The position numbers and the translations under genes are program-made. A DNA stretch of 43,895 bases from Geobacteraceae bacterium GWC2_55_20 (GTDB taxonomy: Bacteria > Desulfobacterota > Desulfuromonadia > Geobacterales > Pseudopelobacteraceae): NCBI GenBank assembly GCA_001802125.1, contig MGZK01000045.1, positions 1-43,895 on the forward strand, read 5' to 3'. Positions within the stretch are counted from its first letter, which is position 1; the number at the start of each line of letters is the position of its first letter. The notes below the pieces were generated by a model. The model had not been told where the DNA came from, made no database searches, and worked only from the letters and a program-made list of their open reading frames with translations. Of the stretch, positions 1-43,895 are shown piece after piece.

Positions 1-13
1 AAGGAGAAAAACG

Positions 14-265
14 ATGAGCGAAAGAGAGCTTGAACTGCAGGCAAGACTTGAATACCTTGAGCGTCACACCTGGCGAAACAGCGCTATCTTGAGGGCTGTG
101 GCAATGGTGGCCTTCACGGCCCTGATTGGAATCGTAGTCGCCTCTGGTGTTGTCGGTGGCGGTCGCGGCAGTCACTGGTCCGGCCCGGCCTGGAATACGA
201 TGTGGCTCTATGGCCTGTTTGCCGCTAACGCGGTATCGATGTTCTGGACGACTCACAAGGAATAG
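14..265 (+). CDS. Small membrane protein of unknown function
   Basis: This 83-residue protein has a charged N-terminal stretch (residues 1-25, mostly Glu/Arg/Leu and probably helical), then a hydrophobic segment at about 28-48 and a second at about 60-78, so it should cross the inner membrane twice. The start is supported by AAGGAG at positions 2-7, seven bases upstream. It is followed after 12 bases by a larger membrane protein and then an OFA-type transporter, all on the same strand, so the three probably form one operon. I do not recognise the family. A role as an accessory subunit of the transporter system is only inferred from position. Confidence 0.75.
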   Translation: MSERELELQARLEYLERHTWRNSAILRAVAMVAFTALIGIVVASGVVGGGRGSHWSGPAWNTMWLYGLFAANAVSMFWTTHKE

Positions 266-277
266 GGGGATACGAAA

Positions 278-1327
278 ATGCCAATGAAAATTTCCAATGC
301 AATCCTTCTGCTGGTTGTCTGCGTAGTATGCGCGGCTTTCAGCATGCAGATTTTTGCCGGTCTCGACGAGATGATGGGTGATCAATACTGGACTGTGGAC
401 ACAACCCAGGGCGATCACGGTTGGTATGCGATGGGCCTGCTGCCGCACGTAAAGAAAACGCCCAAGGATGAGGCAAAGGCGCTCAACACCGACGCCGATC
501 CCAAAAACGATGTTGTCATTTACGCCCAGAGCGGCGATTTTGCCGGTAAATCGGTCTATGGTATCTGCTTTGGTATTCCGCTGATCATGTACCTGATCTG
601 GTTTGCCTTTATCATCGGTTTTCCCGACAAGGTCGATCCCTACCTGCTGCCGCGCAAGATATTTACCATCGCGGTAATCATCGGTTGTTCCGTTGTTGCC
701 AATCTTTTCCTGATGCGCATCGCCGGCGACTTTGCCCGTGATCCGATGTCCCGTATCGCCAACCTGGCCGGAAACCACGCCTCGCTGCTTTTCCACAATG
801 CCGGGATCTGGTTTGCAATTCTCTTTTCCGCCCTCGGTACTCACAACCATTCCTTCAATGAAGTTCAGGCGCCCGATAGCCGTCAATGGCATTCCCAAGC
901 TAACGAGAAATTCAACTGGATGTTCTGTCTGCTGGGCGTTGTCACGGTGCTGGAAGTTGTGCTTGTAAAGAACAAGCTTGCTCTGCCGGATGCTGCGGTT
1001 GACTATTCGGTCTGGATTATCTGGGTTGTGATCTTCATGCGTATGTATGGTTTCTCTCCCAAATACTGGATCAAGCGTCCGACCGGTATTGCCATCATGG
1101 TAGTCGGAACCCTGCTGACCCTGCCGGTGTTCTACATGCTGGAGCGCTTGACCGGAACCTACGGAGCCGGATTTGCTTCCCCGATTCTGGCCAAGGCCCT
1201 GGGAGCTGAAAATCAGAACATTGGGTTGTCGCTGATGGTTTCGATATATCTTGTTTTCTGGATGGAGTTTGCTACCGCCATCCGCATGAACGGCCCGCTT
1301 AAAAAAGCCGTTGCCAAGCAACAATAG
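278..1327 (+). CDS. Multi-spanning membrane protein, unknown, next to OFA transporter
   Basis: This 349-residue protein has an N-terminal hydrophobic segment (about 5-26), an extracytoplasmic-looking stretch of about 65 residues rich in Asp and Lys (30-95), then roughly seven further hydrophobic segments to residue 335. It contains several His residues in or near membrane segments (NHASLLFHNAG around 165-175 and GTHNHSF around 188-194), which could bind metal or heme, but I see no CXXCH motif or known transporter signature. A second Met lies two codons in (284). It sits 12 bases after a small membrane protein and 11 bases before an OFA-family carrier, so a joint role in anion uptake or energy coupling is plausible but unproven. 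Confidence 0.8.
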   Translation: MPMKISNAILLLVVCVVCAAFSMQIFAGLDEMMGDQYWTVDTTQGDHGWYAMGLLPHVKKTPKDEAKALNTDADPKNDVVIYAQSGDFAGKSVYGICFGIPLIMYLIWFAFIIGFPDKVDPYLLPRKIFTIAVIIGCSVVANLFLMRIAGDFARDPMSRIANLAGNHASLLFHNAGIWFAILFSALGTHNHSFNEVQAPDSRQWHSQANEKFNWMFCLLGVVTVLEVVLVKNKLALPDAAVDYSVWIIWVVIFMRMYGFSPKYWIKRPTGIAIMVVGTLLTLPVFYMLERLTGTYGAGFASPILAKALGAENQNIGLSLMVSIYLVFWMEFATAIRMNGPLKKAVAKQQ

Positions 1328-1338
1328 GTCAGGGGGAA

Positions 1339-2715
1339 ATGGATATGTCTGATATCAAGAACAGAGGTTGGCAAGTTGTTATTGCCGGTACCGGCATCAA
1401 TCTGGCTTTGGGAGTACTGTACGCCTGGAGTATATTCAAGGGGGCCATCAAGGCCTCGATCGAAAAAGGGGGACCGGGTGCTTTCCAGTGGGATATAGCA
1501 TCGATAAACGATCCCTATGCGGTTTGCTGTCTGACTTTCGCATTCGCCATGATTCTGGCAGGTAAGTGCCAGGACAAGATCGGTCCGGCCAAAACCGCGT
1601 TGATCGGCGGAGTGCTGGTGGGCGCCGGGTTCACCTTGCTGGGTTTCTCGTCAAGCTATATCGCCTGGGTGGTTGGTTTCGGAATACTGGGTGGAGCCGG
1701 TTTCGGTTTTGGATATTCGGCGGCAACCCCGCCGGCTCTGAAGTGGTTCTCACCAGCCAAGACCGGTCTGATTGCCGGAATAGTCGTTGGTGGCTTCGGT
1801 CTGGCGCCGGTTTATATCGCGCCGTTGTCATCCTGGCTTTTGGGCAGGTTCGGGATAGAAAGCTCAATGTTTATGCTGGCCGCGGGTTTTGCGGTGGTGG
1901 TTTGCGGCTTATCGTTCTTTGTTGTCAACCCTCCCGCCGGTTATGTCCCGGCCGAGCCTGCCGACCCAGGTCCGGTAGCGGCTCTGAATGCCGCCAAACC
2001 CAAGATTAACGCATCCGCCAGTGAAATGCTGCGTTCATACAAGTTCTATGTACTCTGGTTGACCTATTTCATAGGCGCCGGCGCTGGTCTGATGGTGATC
2101 GGCAGCGTGGCCGGACTGGCCAAGAAGAGTATGGGTTCCATGGCCTTCCTGGCGGTTGCAATCATGGCGATCGGCAATGCCGGTGGCCGTGTAATTGCCG
2201 GAGTGCTCTCAGACAAGATCGGTCGTCGCGCAACCCTTTTCATCATGCTTTCGTTCCAGGCTGTGCTGATGTTTGCCGCGATGCCCGTGATAGCCACCAA
2301 TAACGCCGCACTGCTGGTAGTTCTGGCTACATTCATCGGTTTCAATTACGGATCCAACCTGGCCCTGTTCCCGTCGTTTTCCAAGGATTACTGGGGAGTC
2401 AAGAACTATGGCATGAATTACGGCATCCTCTTCAGCGCCTGGGGCGTGGGCGGTTTTGTAATGGGCAAGGTGTCCGAAATGCTGAGTTCCCAACCGGGCG
2501 GCATGGCAAAATCATTCATGCTCTCCGGAGCTCTGCTGGCCGCCGGCGCTGCATTGACCATCTTCCTGGCAGAACTCAAACCGGCGACAGAAGGCCAGGC
2601 AGAACCCTCGCAATGGAGAGAGTTCTGGGCTGAATTCATGCTGGGCGCCAAGGTTTTTGCCGGATATGAACAGGCACAGGTACGCATACCGAGAGAGGCT
2701 ACCGTTATAAGATAG
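1339..2715 (+). CDS. OFA family MFS transporter (oxalate/formate antiporter-like)
   Basis: This 458-residue major facilitator has about 12 membrane segments. The N-terminus, with WQVVIAGTGINLALGVLYAWSI at about residues 10-31 (pattern G-x-x-x-N-x-x-x-G-x-x-Y-x-W-S), is the typical opening of the OFA branch. The loop after helix 2 has GKCQDKIGP, and the second half has GRVIAGVLSDKIGRR, both MFS loop-2/8 motifs. Family members move small carboxylates such as oxalate, formate, lactate or pyruvate across the inner membrane; the substrate cannot be read from sequence. GGGGGA lies just upstream of the start. It is the last gene of a three-gene unit and is followed by a strong hairpin at 2819-2846. 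For an acetate- or formate-oxidising anaerobe, a monocarboxylate carrier fits, but that is inference. Confidence 0.88.
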   Translation: MDMSDIKNRGWQVVIAGTGINLALGVLYAWSIFKGAIKASIEKGGPGAFQWDIASINDPYAVCCLTFAFAMILAGKCQDKIGPAKTALIGGVLVGAGFTLLGFSSSYIAWVVGFGILGGAGFGFGYSAATPPALKWFSPAKTGLIAGIVVGGFGLAPVYIAPLSSWLLGRFGIESSMFMLAAGFAVVVCGLSFFVVNPPAGYVPAEPADPGPVAALNAAKPKINASASEMLRSYKFYVLWLTYFIGAGAGLMVIGSVAGLAKKSMGSMAFLAVAIMAIGNAGGRVIAGVLSDKIGRRATLFIMLSFQAVLMFAAMPVIATNNAALLVVLATFIGFNYGSNLALFPSFSKDYWGVKNYGMNYGILFSAWGVGGFVMGKVSEMLSSQPGGMAKSFMLSGALLAAGAALTIFLAELKPATEGQAEPSQWREFWAEFMLGAKVFAGYEQAQVRIPREATVIR

Positions 2716-2818
2716 CCTGTCCGCATGATCCGCCGGTCATCCGCCGCCGTCGGGTCTGAACCATCGAGGTGGATATTTAAACCATAGCCAATCGGCACTG
2801 TTTTCTGCCAAAAACAGG

Positions 2819-2846
2819 AAAACCCCGTGGGAAACCTCGGGGTTTT
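2819..2846. terminator. Bidirectional intrinsic terminator between convergent genes
   Basis: AAAACCCCG (2819-2827) and CGGGGTTTT (2838-2846) form a nine-pair stem around a ten-base loop, with A-rich sequence on one side and T-rich on the other so that it can work in both directions. It lies between the OFA transporter (plus strand, stop 2715) and the DUF350 gene (minus strand, stop 2873). Positions 2716-2818 contain no gene I can support. Confidence 0.85.
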
Positions 2847-2872
2847 CAATTTTGGAACCATGAAGACAAAAA

Positions 2873-3286
2873 TTAATATGTCATGCAGGCAGCATTGAGG
2901 ATTCCGATTGAAATCGAGCAGAATGCCAGCAGGGTCGCGGCGGCGATATGATTGTTCTCGATCTCCCGCACCAGGTCCCTGAAGACAAGCCGGACAGTAC
3001 CGAAGACCGCAAACTGCACCAGCATCGCGATCACGGCCCAGATCAGCATGTCGATGAAACTGACACTGTGTGTGATGGCGCTGTAAAGCGGCAGGATGAA
3101 GCCGGTCAGAGCGCCACCGAAGCTTATGGCCGCCGAGGTCTTGCCTTCGCGGATCAGCTTCAGTTCGTTATAGGGTGTCATTGCGCAATAGATAATACAG
3201 AAAACAGCCACAAAACCGAGTGCCGCGCCAAAGTAGCCGCAGAAGCCAAGCAGTCCCGACAGTGAATCCAGCAGTTTGCCTTGCAT
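2873..3286 (-). CDS. DUF350 (YjfL-like) inner-membrane protein
   Basis: This 137-residue protein has four hydrophobic segments (about 13-33, 50-70, 78-98 and 113-135), with the small-residue-rich helices and the acidic/basic turn (LVFRDLVREIENNH) typical of DUF350/YjfL proteins. The start at 3286 is chosen because AGGAGG lies about nine bases upstream; the frame stays open further upstream, but that part overlaps the preceding gene and does not look like protein. It is the last gene of a minus-strand trio with a YjfC-like ligase and a YjfM/YgiB-like lipoprotein, the same three families that occur together in enterobacteria. The molecular function of DUF350 proteins is unknown to me. Confidence 0.85.
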   Translation of the reverse strand: MQGKLLDSLSGLLGFCGYFGAALGFVAVFCIIYCAMTPYNELKLIREGKTSAAISFGGALTGFILPLYSAITHSVSFIDMLIWAVIAMLVQFAVFGTVRLVFRDLVREIENNHIAAATLLAFCSISIGILNAACMTY

Positions 3287-3320
3287 CTGAAAATCCTCCT
3301 CGATATGAAATAATTGATAA

Positions 3321-4448
3321 CTATTGAAACAGGTGCGGTACAAAGCGGCTGGCATTGGTGGTGACTCGCGACAAGTCTTCGCGAATGCCGATACCGGCCG
3401 GTTCGCCATCTATTACCCATGACCCGATTACCGGATAGTTTCCGTCAAAGCAGGGCATGTCTGCCAATTCCTGGTAGACGGTTCCCTGGCCGGTATAACT
3501 CCCGTCATATTCCGTGACCAGTCCATTGCGGTGGACGCTGATGTTGCTTCCCTCCCGCGACAGGAAAGGTTTGGACACGAAGTTATCGCGGAAATGCCCA
3601 GGGTCGAAGCTCGCTTCCAGAAGGTTGGGGTGGCGAGGGTTCAGTTCCCACAGAATCGGAAGGATAGCCTTGTTGCTGAGAATCATTTTCCAGGCCGGTT
3701 CTATCAGGATTATGCCGCTCTGTTCCAGATAACGTCCGAAAAACTCGCTGACGAGCCATTCCCACGGGTAAAGTTTGAACATTGAATTGATGATTTTGTC
3801 CGTGCTGTCCACATATCTGGAGCCGAGTGAGTCGAAGCCGATGTCTTCGATAAAAAACTGCTCGGTCGCCAGTCCGGCCTGATGCGCCGTGTCCCGCAGG
3901 TATTCCAGGTTGCCCAGATCCTCCGCGGCATCCTTGACACAGCTGAAATATAGTGCCCCGTCAATGGAGTTTTTCAGTCCTTTCCAACCTTCAATCAGTT
4001 TTTCGTGAATTGAGTTGAATTGGTCCGCTTCGGGAAAACGATCCTTCAGCCAGAACCATTGCGTAACACTGGCCTCCAGCAGCGCGGTTGGGGTATCGGC
4101 GTTATACTCAAGCATCCTGGGAGGGGAATGCCCATCGTAAACCAGATCGAACCTTCCCAGAATCGAGGGCTCATCGTTCTCCCAGGAACGTTCGATCAGC
4201 GGAATTGCCAGCGGCGGTATCCGCAGTTTATCGTAAAGTTTTTCGGAGATGACGTGCCCGGCCGCCTCGATACAGATCTCCTGCAGTTCCTTGGTGGCAG
4301 CTTCCAGCTCATCTATTTCCGCGGCAGTGAAAGAATAATGGGCTGTTTCATCCCAATAGACCTCGCCGTCAATGGTGTGGTAGCTCATGCCGCATGATTC
4401 CACTTTTTGCTGCCACTCAAATCGTGGTGGAGTAACATTGCGCTGCAT
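3321..4448 (-). CDS. Glutathionylspermidine synthase-like ATP-grasp ligase (YjfC/YgiC family)
   Basis: This 375-residue protein matches the C-terminal synthetase domain of glutathionylspermidine synthases, as YgiC and YjfC do in E. coli. Visible hallmarks are RFDLVYDG followed by LEYNADTPTALLE (about 130-150), which forms the ATP/Mg site, ILWELNPRHPNLLEA (about 265-280), FVSKPFLSREGSNIS (about 292-306) and the C-terminal GSWVIDGEPAGIGIRED. Start 4448 has GGGAGG upstream, and only two bases separate it from the stop of the upstream lipoprotein gene. The amidase half of true glutathionylspermidine synthase is absent. YgiC/YjfC proteins lack a confirmed substrate, so a peptide or polyamine ligase role is family-level inference. 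Confidence 0.88.
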   Translation of the reverse strand: MQRNVTPPRFEWQQKVESCGMSYHTIDGEVYWDETAHYSFTAAEIDELEAATKELQEICIEAAGHVISEKLYDKLRIPPLAIPLIERSWENDEPSILGRFDLVYDGHSPPRMLEYNADTPTALLEASVTQWFWLKDRFPEADQFNSIHEKLIEGWKGLKNSIDGALYFSCVKDAAEDLGNLEYLRDTAHQAGLATEQFFIEDIGFDSLGSRYVDSTDKIINSMFKLYPWEWLVSEFFGRYLEQSGIILIEPAWKMILSNKAILPILWELNPRHPNLLEASFDPGHFRDNFVSKPFLSREGSNISVHRNGLVTEYDGSYTGQGTVYQELADMPCFDGNYPVIGSWVIDGEPAGIGIREDLSRVTTNASRFVPHLFQ

Positions 4449-42455: not shown

Positions 42456-43394
42456 ATGGTACGCAACATTAAGATTCTTCTGCTGTCTCTTTCATGCTTC
42501 GCCATCGTTTCAACAGCAGTCGCGGCTGAGCGGCCGCAACGTATAAAGCAGAAGAGCTCAGTCCCGTCCGTGACCGTTCCGGTTCCGCCGCTCAATCCCG
42601 CCGCTCCCACAATTCTCAGCATAATACCGGCTCAGTCGGAACCGGGTGGCAAAGTAACCATCTTCGGGAGCGGTTTTGGAGAACAATCGACGGTTTATCT
42701 GGGGAGTACCGAGATTCCAGCAAAGGTGACCGGTGGCAAACAGCTGGAATTTCACCTTCCCCAGCTTGAGGCGGGTTTGTATGCGCTGTACGTAAAGCGT
42801 AACGACGGCATTACCGGCAGAGTCTATAACTTTACCGTTCAGGCGCTTCGTCCGGTGCTGATGTCGATTGTTCCGGAAAGCGTCAGCGCCTGCGCGCAAG
42901 GTGGAGAGCGCGAGGTGGCCGCCAACGGAAAAAACTTCAGCGAAACATCTTCACTTTTGTTTGACGGGGCTGTGATCAACAGCCGCTTCATTTCCCCGGA
43001 ACAGATTGTATTCACGGCGCCTTCCGCTTCAAGCGGTATTCATCAGATCACGGTAAAAAACGATCCGGAAAATGGTTCCCTGCCTAGAACCCTGATTATT
43101 GAAAGCAAGCCTGAAATCAGCCAGGTTACAATTGGAAACGAGTTCGTCAATTATTACGAACTGAATATCCACGGCAGGAACTTTCAGCAAAACTCGGCGA
43201 TCTATGTCGATGGCCAGAGAATAGGCGGAAAGGGCGGACAGGAGATGATCGAGAGGGAAAAGCTGATTTTCATCGATTGTACAAGGCTGGTTTACCAACG
43301 TCATCCCTATTCATCGACCAACAAGGATTTTCGCATTCAGGTGATCAACCAGGGTGGAGAGGGAAGCCAGGTTGTCAATGTAACAGCGCCATGA
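42456..43394 (+). CDS. Exported protein with IPT/TIG domains
   Basis: This 312-residue protein has a signal peptide (1-23, AVAA-ER), a short proline-rich stretch, then two or three immunoglobulin-like IPT/TIG modules. The first runs about 50-130 (PTILSIIPAQSEPGGKVTI, FGSGFGEQSTVYLG); the second about 133-215 (PVLMSIVPESVSACAQGG, GKNFSETSSLLFDG) and a third-like repeat runs from 216 to the end (GRNFQQNSAIYVDGQ). AAGGAG precedes the start. Such modules are found in surface or periplasmic binding proteins. It sits 21 bases after lptG, probably in the same transcript, but a link to LPS export is not established. Confidence 0.85.
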   Translation: MVRNIKILLLSLSCFAIVSTAVAAERPQRIKQKSSVPSVTVPVPPLNPAAPTILSIIPAQSEPGGKVTIFGSGFGEQSTVYLGSTEIPAKVTGGKQLEFHLPQLEAGLYALYVKRNDGITGRVYNFTVQALRPVLMSIVPESVSACAQGGEREVAANGKNFSETSSLLFDGAVINSRFISPEQIVFTAPSASSGIHQITVKNDPENGSLPRTLIIESKPEISQVTIGNEFVNYYELNIHGRNFQQNSAIYVDGQRIGGKGGQEMIEREKLIFIDCTRLVYQRHPYSSTNKDFRIQVINQGGEGSQVVNVTAP

Positions 43395-43519
43395 AGGTGT
43401 TTTCCTGCGCTGGTCCATTGAAACCGCTTTTATGAGCAAGAATTTGTAGCGTTGTTTCGTACGTTCCAACAGTTGTCCCGATAAAAGATGGACATCTGAT
43501 ATTCATTGATTTGAGATTA

Positions 43520-43558
43520 GATAAGGGGGCGAGATGCTTGACATCTCGCCCCCTTATC
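43520..43558. terminator. Perfect 17-base-pair hairpin between convergent genes
   Basis: GATAAGGGGGCGAGATG (43520-43536) and CATCTCGCCCCCTTATC (43542-43558) are fully complementary around loop CTTGA. It lies between the IPT gene (stop 43394, plus) and the micro-gene (stop 43568, minus). There is no T-tract on either side, so it may end transcription inefficiently, protect 3' ends, or serve another purpose. The stretch 43395-43519 has no gene I can support, only a short AGATGGACATCT palindrome near 43486. Confidence 0.6.
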
Positions 43559-43567
43559 CATGCGATA

Positions 43568-43630
43568 TCAGCAAGGATGAACGTCAGCGGAACCAACTAC
43601 ACGGGGCTTGATATAAGTTCTCTTCTTCAT
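43568..43630 (-). CDS. Candidate 20-residue peptide gene (MKKRTYIKPRVVGSADVHPC)
   Basis: The minus strand has AAAGGAG eight bases upstream of an ATG at 43630, then 20 sense codons and TGA. The basic N-terminus, the Y-x-x-P-x-V-x-G pattern (residues 6-13) and the terminal HPC resemble leader peptides of ribosomally made, modified peptides (RiPPs), in which Y-x-x-P patterns are read by PqqD-like domains. An in-frame ATG at 43666 would give 32 residues, but its ribosome-binding site is poorly spaced. The gene follows a probable cytochrome gene (stop 43785) and is followed by a 17-pair hairpin ten bases after its stop. No modifying enzyme is in the window. I do not recognise a named family. Confidence 0.55.
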   Translation of the reverse strand: MKKRTYIKPRVVGSADVHPC

Positions 43631-43727
43631 TTGTTCATCTCCTTTCCGCACGTTGATCACATGCATGCTTTAAATTTCGTCTCCCAGACCCGGACTGCGT
43701 TTGCAAGAGAAAAATAACACTGACTCA

Positions 43728-43766
43728 GCAAGTACCCCCCGGCAGAGTCGAGGGTACTTGCCGGGG
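43728..43766 (-). promoter_or_regulatory. Overlapping RNA hairpins between cytochrome and micro-gene
   Basis: Two alternative stems share bases: GCAAGTACCC/GGGTACTTGC (43728-43737 with 43752-43761, ten pairs) and CCCCGGCA/TGCCGGGG (43737-43744 with 43759-43766, eight pairs). A third short pair GACTC/GAGTC (43722-43726 with 43745-43749) is also possible. On the minus strand a T-rich run follows about ten bases later (43719-43709). It could be a terminator for the cytochrome gene, an attenuator or a switch controlling read-through into the peptide gene. Confidence 0.55.
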
Positions 43767-43784
43767 TAATTATACAGTGACAAC

Positions 43785-43895
43785 TTACCAGAGCGACTTG
43801 GTGTTCCATTGCTGCGAAGTCTGGTTGAAGGTTGTGCCTCCGGCCGTGGCCGTGTCATGACAGGTCTGCGTTGCTGCGGAACCTGATGTGCCGAA
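43785..43895 (-). CDS. C-terminal end of a probable multiheme c-type cytochrome (partial)
   Basis: Only the last 36 residues are in the window; the frame is open to the window edge. The visible part includes AATQTCHDTATAGGTTF and ends NTKSLW. The CH dipeptide followed by Asp is typical of a heme site, but the residue three positions before that Cys is Thr, so it is not CXXCH. If a partner cysteine exists it must lie upstream of the visible residues, giving a spacing of at least 11. Long-spaced CXnCH sites and CxxxxCH/CXXCH repeat proteins are known from Geobacter. With so little sequence the cytochrome assignment is moderate. Confidence 0.5.
   Translation of the reverse strand, partial: FGTSGSAATQTCHDTATAGGTTFNQTSQQWNTKSLW

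Follow-up and report, generated by a model that had tools for sequence, protein, structure and literature searches.

We studied a very short gene on the minus strand of a 43,895-nucleotide contig from Geobacteraceae bacterium GWC2_55_20 (the whole analysed contig is called the window below) and asked what kind of peptide it encodes. The gene, at 43568-43630, has 20 codons, reads MKKRTYIKPRVVGSADVHPC and stops with TGA. A Shine-Dalgarno site, AAAGGAG (43639-43645, minus strand), lies 8 nt before its ATG. Beyond the stop, between convergent genes, comes a terminator-like inverted repeat of 17 pairs that lacks a clear T run (43520-43558, minus strand); the 63-nt stretch holding this repeat has a predicted fold of -36.9 kcal/mol. 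Ribosome-binding site, reading frame and hairpin were all confirmed where the original prediction had placed them. No signal peptide was evident in the peptide by eye. For the reasons given below, we hold that the gene very probably encodes the precursor peptide of the GeoRSP system, a RiPP pathway.

Conservation and spread of the peptide family

The window genome carried three copies of the gene, on contigs C45 (the window), C4 and C62, which were 100, 90 and 95% identical to the query and ended with TGA, TGA and TAA, respectively. A match on contig C18 (G000:C18:43894, E 1.23) was rejected as chance: it had neither a start nor VHPC, and it lay in a frame other than the membrane-protein-like frame found there. 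Matches in the same family numbered 35, spread over 17 of 76 genomes (E <= 0.05). In the order, 39 of the 141 genomes matched at E <= 0.01 with a 26-row profile (the match in G045 was weak), at 1-6 matches per carrier genome, and in a draw of 394 genomes from the phylum 31 matched at E <= 0.001. Such recurrence is far beyond chance. These relatives bear out the original suspicion that a family of such peptides could go unseen below the usual annotation length, and no NCBIfam or Pfam model of the peptide was found up to E 10, within HMMER's filters.

The members examined approximate the pattern MKKxxYxxP[RK][VI]VG...VHPC-stop. Eighty-four distinct genes were gathered with two criteria, a motif made up of Tyr/Phe, Pro and PC at the C-terminus and a length of 18-20 codons, so their conserved ends and their length range (58 genes of 20, 19 of 19 and 7 of 18 codons) are partly there by construction. 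The less constrained columns were conserved as well: Val/Ile-11 in all 84 genes, His-18 in 83 and Gly-13 in 80. Every one of the 84 had a Shine-Dalgarno core, and the stop was TGA in 59, TAA in 20 and TAG in 5. In an alignment of 33 rows chosen for diversity, M1, P9, V17, P19 and C20 never varied, and Y6 and H18 hardly did. One variant, at locus L143, read ...MYGKPKVVGTSSLHPC, and no start there yields 18-20 codons. The original prediction had made its case depend on conservation of the amino acids among relatives, and conserved they were: pN/pS was 0.33 over 80 distinct sequences, with synonymous change near saturation.

Association with the GeoRSP enzymes

The peptide had been proposed as a RiPP-type precursor whose radical SAM or PqqD-like partners might lie beyond the window edge. 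Such partners do exist in the same genome, but on contig C132 and not just past the edge: the one match over the TIGR04303 cut-off was a GeoRSP radical SAM/SPASM protein (619 bits), and beside it were a GeoRSP PqqD protein (TIGR04302, 159 bits) and a SPASM protein (TIGR04304, 349 bits). All three exceeded the curated cut-offs of their NCBIfam models. The precursor idea itself is probably right in kind, as judged from the co-occurrence of peptide and enzyme and from the placement of peptide genes in GeoRSP clusters.

The co-occurrence of the peptide with the GeoRSP radical SAM gene is near-exact. At the family level (76 genomes), 15 genomes had both, 2 the peptide only (G035, 66% complete, and G038, 97%), 1 the enzyme only (G025) and 58 neither. 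Relatives are not independent, and presence was therefore dealt anew within genera; this gave a mean of 5.96 shared genomes and a maximum of 13, and none of 200000 dealings reached 15. At the order level (141 genomes; enzyme at E <= 1e-60, with 35/35 matches over the TIGR04303 cut-off) there were 39 peptide and 35 enzyme carriers: 33 genomes had both, 6 the peptide only (G035, G038, G045, G089, G092 and G096), 2 the enzyme only (G025 and G122) and 100 neither. Four of the six peptide-only genomes, three MAGs and G096 (78%), were 66-81% complete. The phylum draw (394 genomes; enzyme at E <= 1e-100, with 24/30 matches over the same cut-off) contained 31 peptide and 30 enzyme carriers, of which 29 had both, 2 the peptide only (G362 and G473) and 1 the enzyme only (G300), leaving 362 with neither; outside the order there were 25 peptide and 24 enzyme carriers, and 23 genomes had both. 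A record labelled Nitrospirae had a GeoRSP enzyme (63% identical) plus the peptide MKKLAYVKPKVVGSASVHPC.

Exceptions occurred on both sides. No GeoRSP enzyme was found at the thresholds used in the peptide carriers G038 (97% complete), G362 and G473. For G025, G122 and G300, which have only the enzyme, a broader profile run at E <= 10 returned short chance matches and no convincing peptide; scans for short ORFs in loci L110, L111, L112 and L132, as well as the 1101 bases before the G122 cluster read by eye, had nothing resembling the peptide. G122 at least is a firm exception to the rule, being a closed genome of one contig that is 100% complete.

The geopeptide maturase TIGR04280, likewise a radical SAM peptide maturase that is common in the same order, served as control. 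It was present in 103 of the 141 order genomes (E <= 1e-60), with up to 5 matches per genome. Set against the peptide, it gave 30 genomes with both, 9 with the peptide only, 73 with the maturase only and 29 with neither; there was no association (p = 0.67), and the geopeptide system was rejected as the partner.

The position of the peptide genes points the same way. Outside the order, 11 genomes had a peptide gene that follows the radical SAM match on the same strand at a distance of 33-179 nt, and G437 and G455 had one flanked by the radical SAM gene and the SPASM gene. Within the order, peptide and enzyme shared a contig at a distance of 6.8-10.9 kb in 12 of the 33 genomes with both; in seven of these (G002, G095, G099, G100, G101, G131 and G140) the peptide gene stood directly before the NosD-like gene at the cluster start. 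In G006 it was inside the GeoRSP row, and G011 had a nearby copy on the strand opposite to the cluster. None of the three copies of the window genome adjoins its GeoRSP cluster.

A typical row in the order starts with genes for a NosD-like beta-helix protein, a carboxypeptidase-regulatory-domain protein, an OpuAC-like binding protein and a ResB-like protein, continues with an ArsP-type permease, a cupin, PqqD, the radical SAM protein and the SPASM protein, and ends with FmdE, a PhnD-type binding protein, a TPR protein and a sulfur-transport-type membrane protein; the window genome carries all thirteen genes. Across 43 loci compared, in which at least five pairs were the same genome fetched twice, PqqD and radical SAM genes were present in 43, NosD in 37, ResB in 31 and the permease in 24, and the count for SPASM was inflated because the SPASM query also matches the radical SAM gene. 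The pair of OpuAC-like and PhnD-like binding proteins was seen in the row at L133:7181-18717 and in other GeoRSP loci.

Neighbouring large proteins and RNA signals

Many further copies of the peptide gene follow genes for very large proteins. The comparison covered 55 rows (54 genes, one with two starts), namely those of the 84 genes for which 2.5 kb or more of upstream DNA was available. A frame of at least 150 codons ended within 300 nt upstream of the peptide in 52 rows; the upstream frame had at least 500 codons in 34 and contained 10-36 CxxCH motifs in 19. The link to cytochrome genes that had been suggested from the window is thus recurrent but not general, as other large proteins and the GeoRSP cluster are also neighbours. 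Twelve upstream frames had a motif of the WNxKxxW type at or near the end. The giant multiheme frames, including one in the Nitrospirae-labelled record, share a tail approximating CHxxxxAGGxxY...QxWNxKxxW, found at 43785-43895 of the window and in loci L054, L056, L057, L061, L065, L066, L069, L071, L073, L081, L084 and L176. Read by eye, the peptide of the Nitrospirae-labelled record follows a carboxypeptidase-regulatory-like frame, before which lies a CxxCH protein ending EHWNSKTPW.

Seven neighbours were run against Pfam and look extracellular by domain type: two matched cytochrome c7/c3 and Geobacter CxxxxCH models, three had Big_1/Invasin_D3 with a C-terminal biotin/lipoyl-like domain, one FG-GAP with UnbV_ASPIC and one a propeller repeat. 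The Big_1/Invasin_D3 neighbours are outside the order (L168:6624-9413, L169:8946-12140 and L173:8128-11832), each followed by a peptide gene. Large non-heme frames before the peptide in L078, L079, L105, L106 and L107 have a Cys one or two residues from the end, in the tails GICRP, DTACQ, HGTCQ, ANVCR and ANTCP; this near-terminal Cys may perhaps be an attachment point.

In the window, the minus-strand frame at 43785-43895 is the C-terminal end of a protein, open at the contig edge; it ends TCHDTATAGGTTFNQTSQQWNTKSLW, and this tail resembles those of multiheme frames located before other members of the peptide family. The gap of 154 nt between this frame and the peptide gene contains a strong predicted hairpin (43726-43763, minus strand), because of which co-transcription of the two is uncertain. 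The last 35 nt of the window (43861-43895) are identical to the first 35 nt of contig C30 (G000:C30:1-35), which has a multiheme reading frame with 21 CxxCH within the stretch 3-4157 and a run of Ns inside, and the end of contig C62 (G000:C62:24164-24271) is 99% identical to the window tail. The break in the assembly thus falls in a repeat, and no single upstream gene can be assigned to the window copy. As for the statement that the peptide gene lies next to a cytochrome gene, the tail is indeed multiheme-like, but it is the whole basis for that adjacency because the contig ends there.

These neighbours raise another explanation, an unmodified microprotein (for example a His-Pro-Cys carrier of heme or metal) that would act for large surface proteins or cytochrome assembly and be inherited with GeoRSP without being its substrate. 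The 19 rows with at least ten CxxCH agree with it, as does the ResB-like gene (Pfam ResB) in 31 of the 43 GeoRSP loci. We regard it as unlikely, since it leaves unexplained why the gene can lie between those for the radical SAM and SPASM proteins and why the peptide has the YxxPx[VI] docking pattern (see below), and many upstream partners are without CxxCH.

The region around the peptide gene was also inspected for RNA signals. A stem-loop, GCATGT-GATCA-ACGTGC (43648-43664, minus strand; one G-U pair), abuts the 5' side of the Shine-Dalgarno site and folds with -7.8 kcal/mol within a 37-nt stretch. A Watson-Crick stem of four pairs was present at the same place in 14 of 46 relatives (L011, L012, L029, L030, L031, L034, L035, L052, L086, L090, L107, L109, L126 and L175), against a mean of 3.8 when the arms were dealt anew; 0 of 20000 dealings reached 14, by a statistic that ignores kinship. 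The arms covary (GCAC..GTGC, GCGC..GCGC, GCAT..ATGC and similar), and the window copy is outside the 14 because of its G-U pair. Folding energy showed no general hairpin before the Shine-Dalgarno site, with no difference between 82 upstream regions and 230 control genes (p = 0.45). The stem is confined to part of the peptide family. On the other side of the gene, the sequence of the hairpin after the stop varies from copy to copy, and this hairpin looks like a terminator-like element that is no conserved part of the family.

An attenuator, that is, a regulatory leader ORF whose translation controls the next gene, could account for this stem and for the seven order genomes in which the peptide directly precedes the NosD-like gene. 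We judge it very improbable: the amino acids are conserved across the phylum despite synonymous change (pN/pS 0.33), many copies are followed, by eye, by a terminator-like hairpin and not by a gene start, and in the 11 genomes outside the order the peptide follows the radical SAM gene instead of preceding it. A selenopeptide, in which TGA is read as selenocysteine to give ...HPC-U-YRMDKGARCQASRPLI through the hairpin, is hardly credible: the window frame does stay open through the hairpin to a TAA and the C4 copy likewise has an open stretch after TGA, but the third copy of the same genome ends with TAA, the sequence after the stop is not kept among relatives, the Rfam matches for 43200-43895 (E up to 5) included no SECIS family, and read-through is rejected as a family trait because 25 of 84 distinct genes have TAA or TAG as the stop at that place.

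Proposed pathway and comparison with known systems

The reading of the gene as the GeoRSP precursor agrees with the layout of the peptide itself. In lasso leaders, YxxPx[L/V/I/F/A] is the motif bound by RREs, according to two papers (PMC13381572, PMC12710340), and the Y-x-x-P-x-[VI] spacing of our peptide matches this docking motif as given in the former. The proposed pathway has both a PqqD-like (RRE) protein, TIGR04302, and a peptide with the matching leader motif. The original prediction had named YxxP as a pattern recognised by a PqqD-like domain, and a docking site is indeed likely from its fit to the lasso leader motif in PMC13381572. Because of this fit, the N-terminal half is probably a leader and the V-H-P-C end the place of modification.

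We propose the following course. The PqqD-like protein would grip the K-K-x-Y-x-x-P-x-[VI] half of the peptide, and the radical SAM/SPASM enzyme together with the SPASM protein would modify the conserved V-H-P-C end; the most likely site is the terminal Cys or the position beside it, and the chemistry would be of the thioether or oxidative decarboxylation type. Read by eye, the radical SAM protein has CxxxCxxC and SPASM cysteines; after its own model, its best NCBIfam scores were with AhbD (heme b synthase), NirJ2 and mycofactocin MftC, and among proteins of solved structure its best relative was PqqE. From this kinship (PqqE, AhbD, NirJ2, MftC) we guess at oxidative chemistry on the C-terminal Cys. 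The product, whole or trimmed, would be exported and work on the surface of the cell together with the large proteins adjoining its genes; as no signal peptide was seen by eye, we infer that export via a membrane protein of the cluster is likely. Scattered copies of the gene would boost the supply of the same product when the adjoining large proteins are made.

PQQ (PqqA/PqqD/PqqE) and mycofactocin (MftA/B/C) likewise combine a short precursor, a PqqD-type protein and a SPASM radical SAM enzyme, and the GeoRSP radical SAM protein reached 161 bits against the MftC model and 120 bits against that of PqqE. Unlike those precursors, our peptide has 1-6 matches per genome, many of them far from the enzymes and beside large proteins, and it ends in VHPC; PQQ and mycofactocin are not known for several precursor copies beside unrelated large proteins. 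With lasso leaders the peptide has the YxxPx[V/I] motif in common. A lasso peptide does not fit: ours ends 11 residues after the Pro, which leaves no room for a lasso core, as such a core needs more residues than that.

To our knowledge, no target peptide had been assigned to GeoRSP before. Haft and Basu reportedly wrote a paper on radical SAM target peptides. In openly licensed PubMed Central we found no description of GeoRSP, a term met only in an unrelated paper on elephants, or of a peptide family with radical SAM, PqqD or multiheme proteins, and the available part of a RiPP survey (PMC4289311) has nothing on this peptide family. What seems new here is a known kind of pathway, an RRE plus a SPASM radical SAM enzyme, with an unusually short, multi-copy and dispersed precursor that is tied to giant proteins.

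GeoRSP is a radical SAM system that had a name but apparently no substrate. The peptide looks like that substrate, and YxxPx[VI]V...VHPC-stop can serve as the search motif for the system. Precursors of this sort escape notice because they have about 20 codons and often lie distant from their enzymes. The association also connects RiPP chemistry, in a way that can be tested, with the very large multiheme proteins of the order. More tentatively, and as a proposal that we consider rather doubtful, GeoRSP could make a new peptide-derived redox or metal-binding group from the C-terminal Val-His-Pro-Cys and supply it to giant multiheme cytochromes and other large surface proteins, many of which have a precursor gene of their own immediately after them; if true, this group would be a dedicated modification or partner of extracellular electron conduits.
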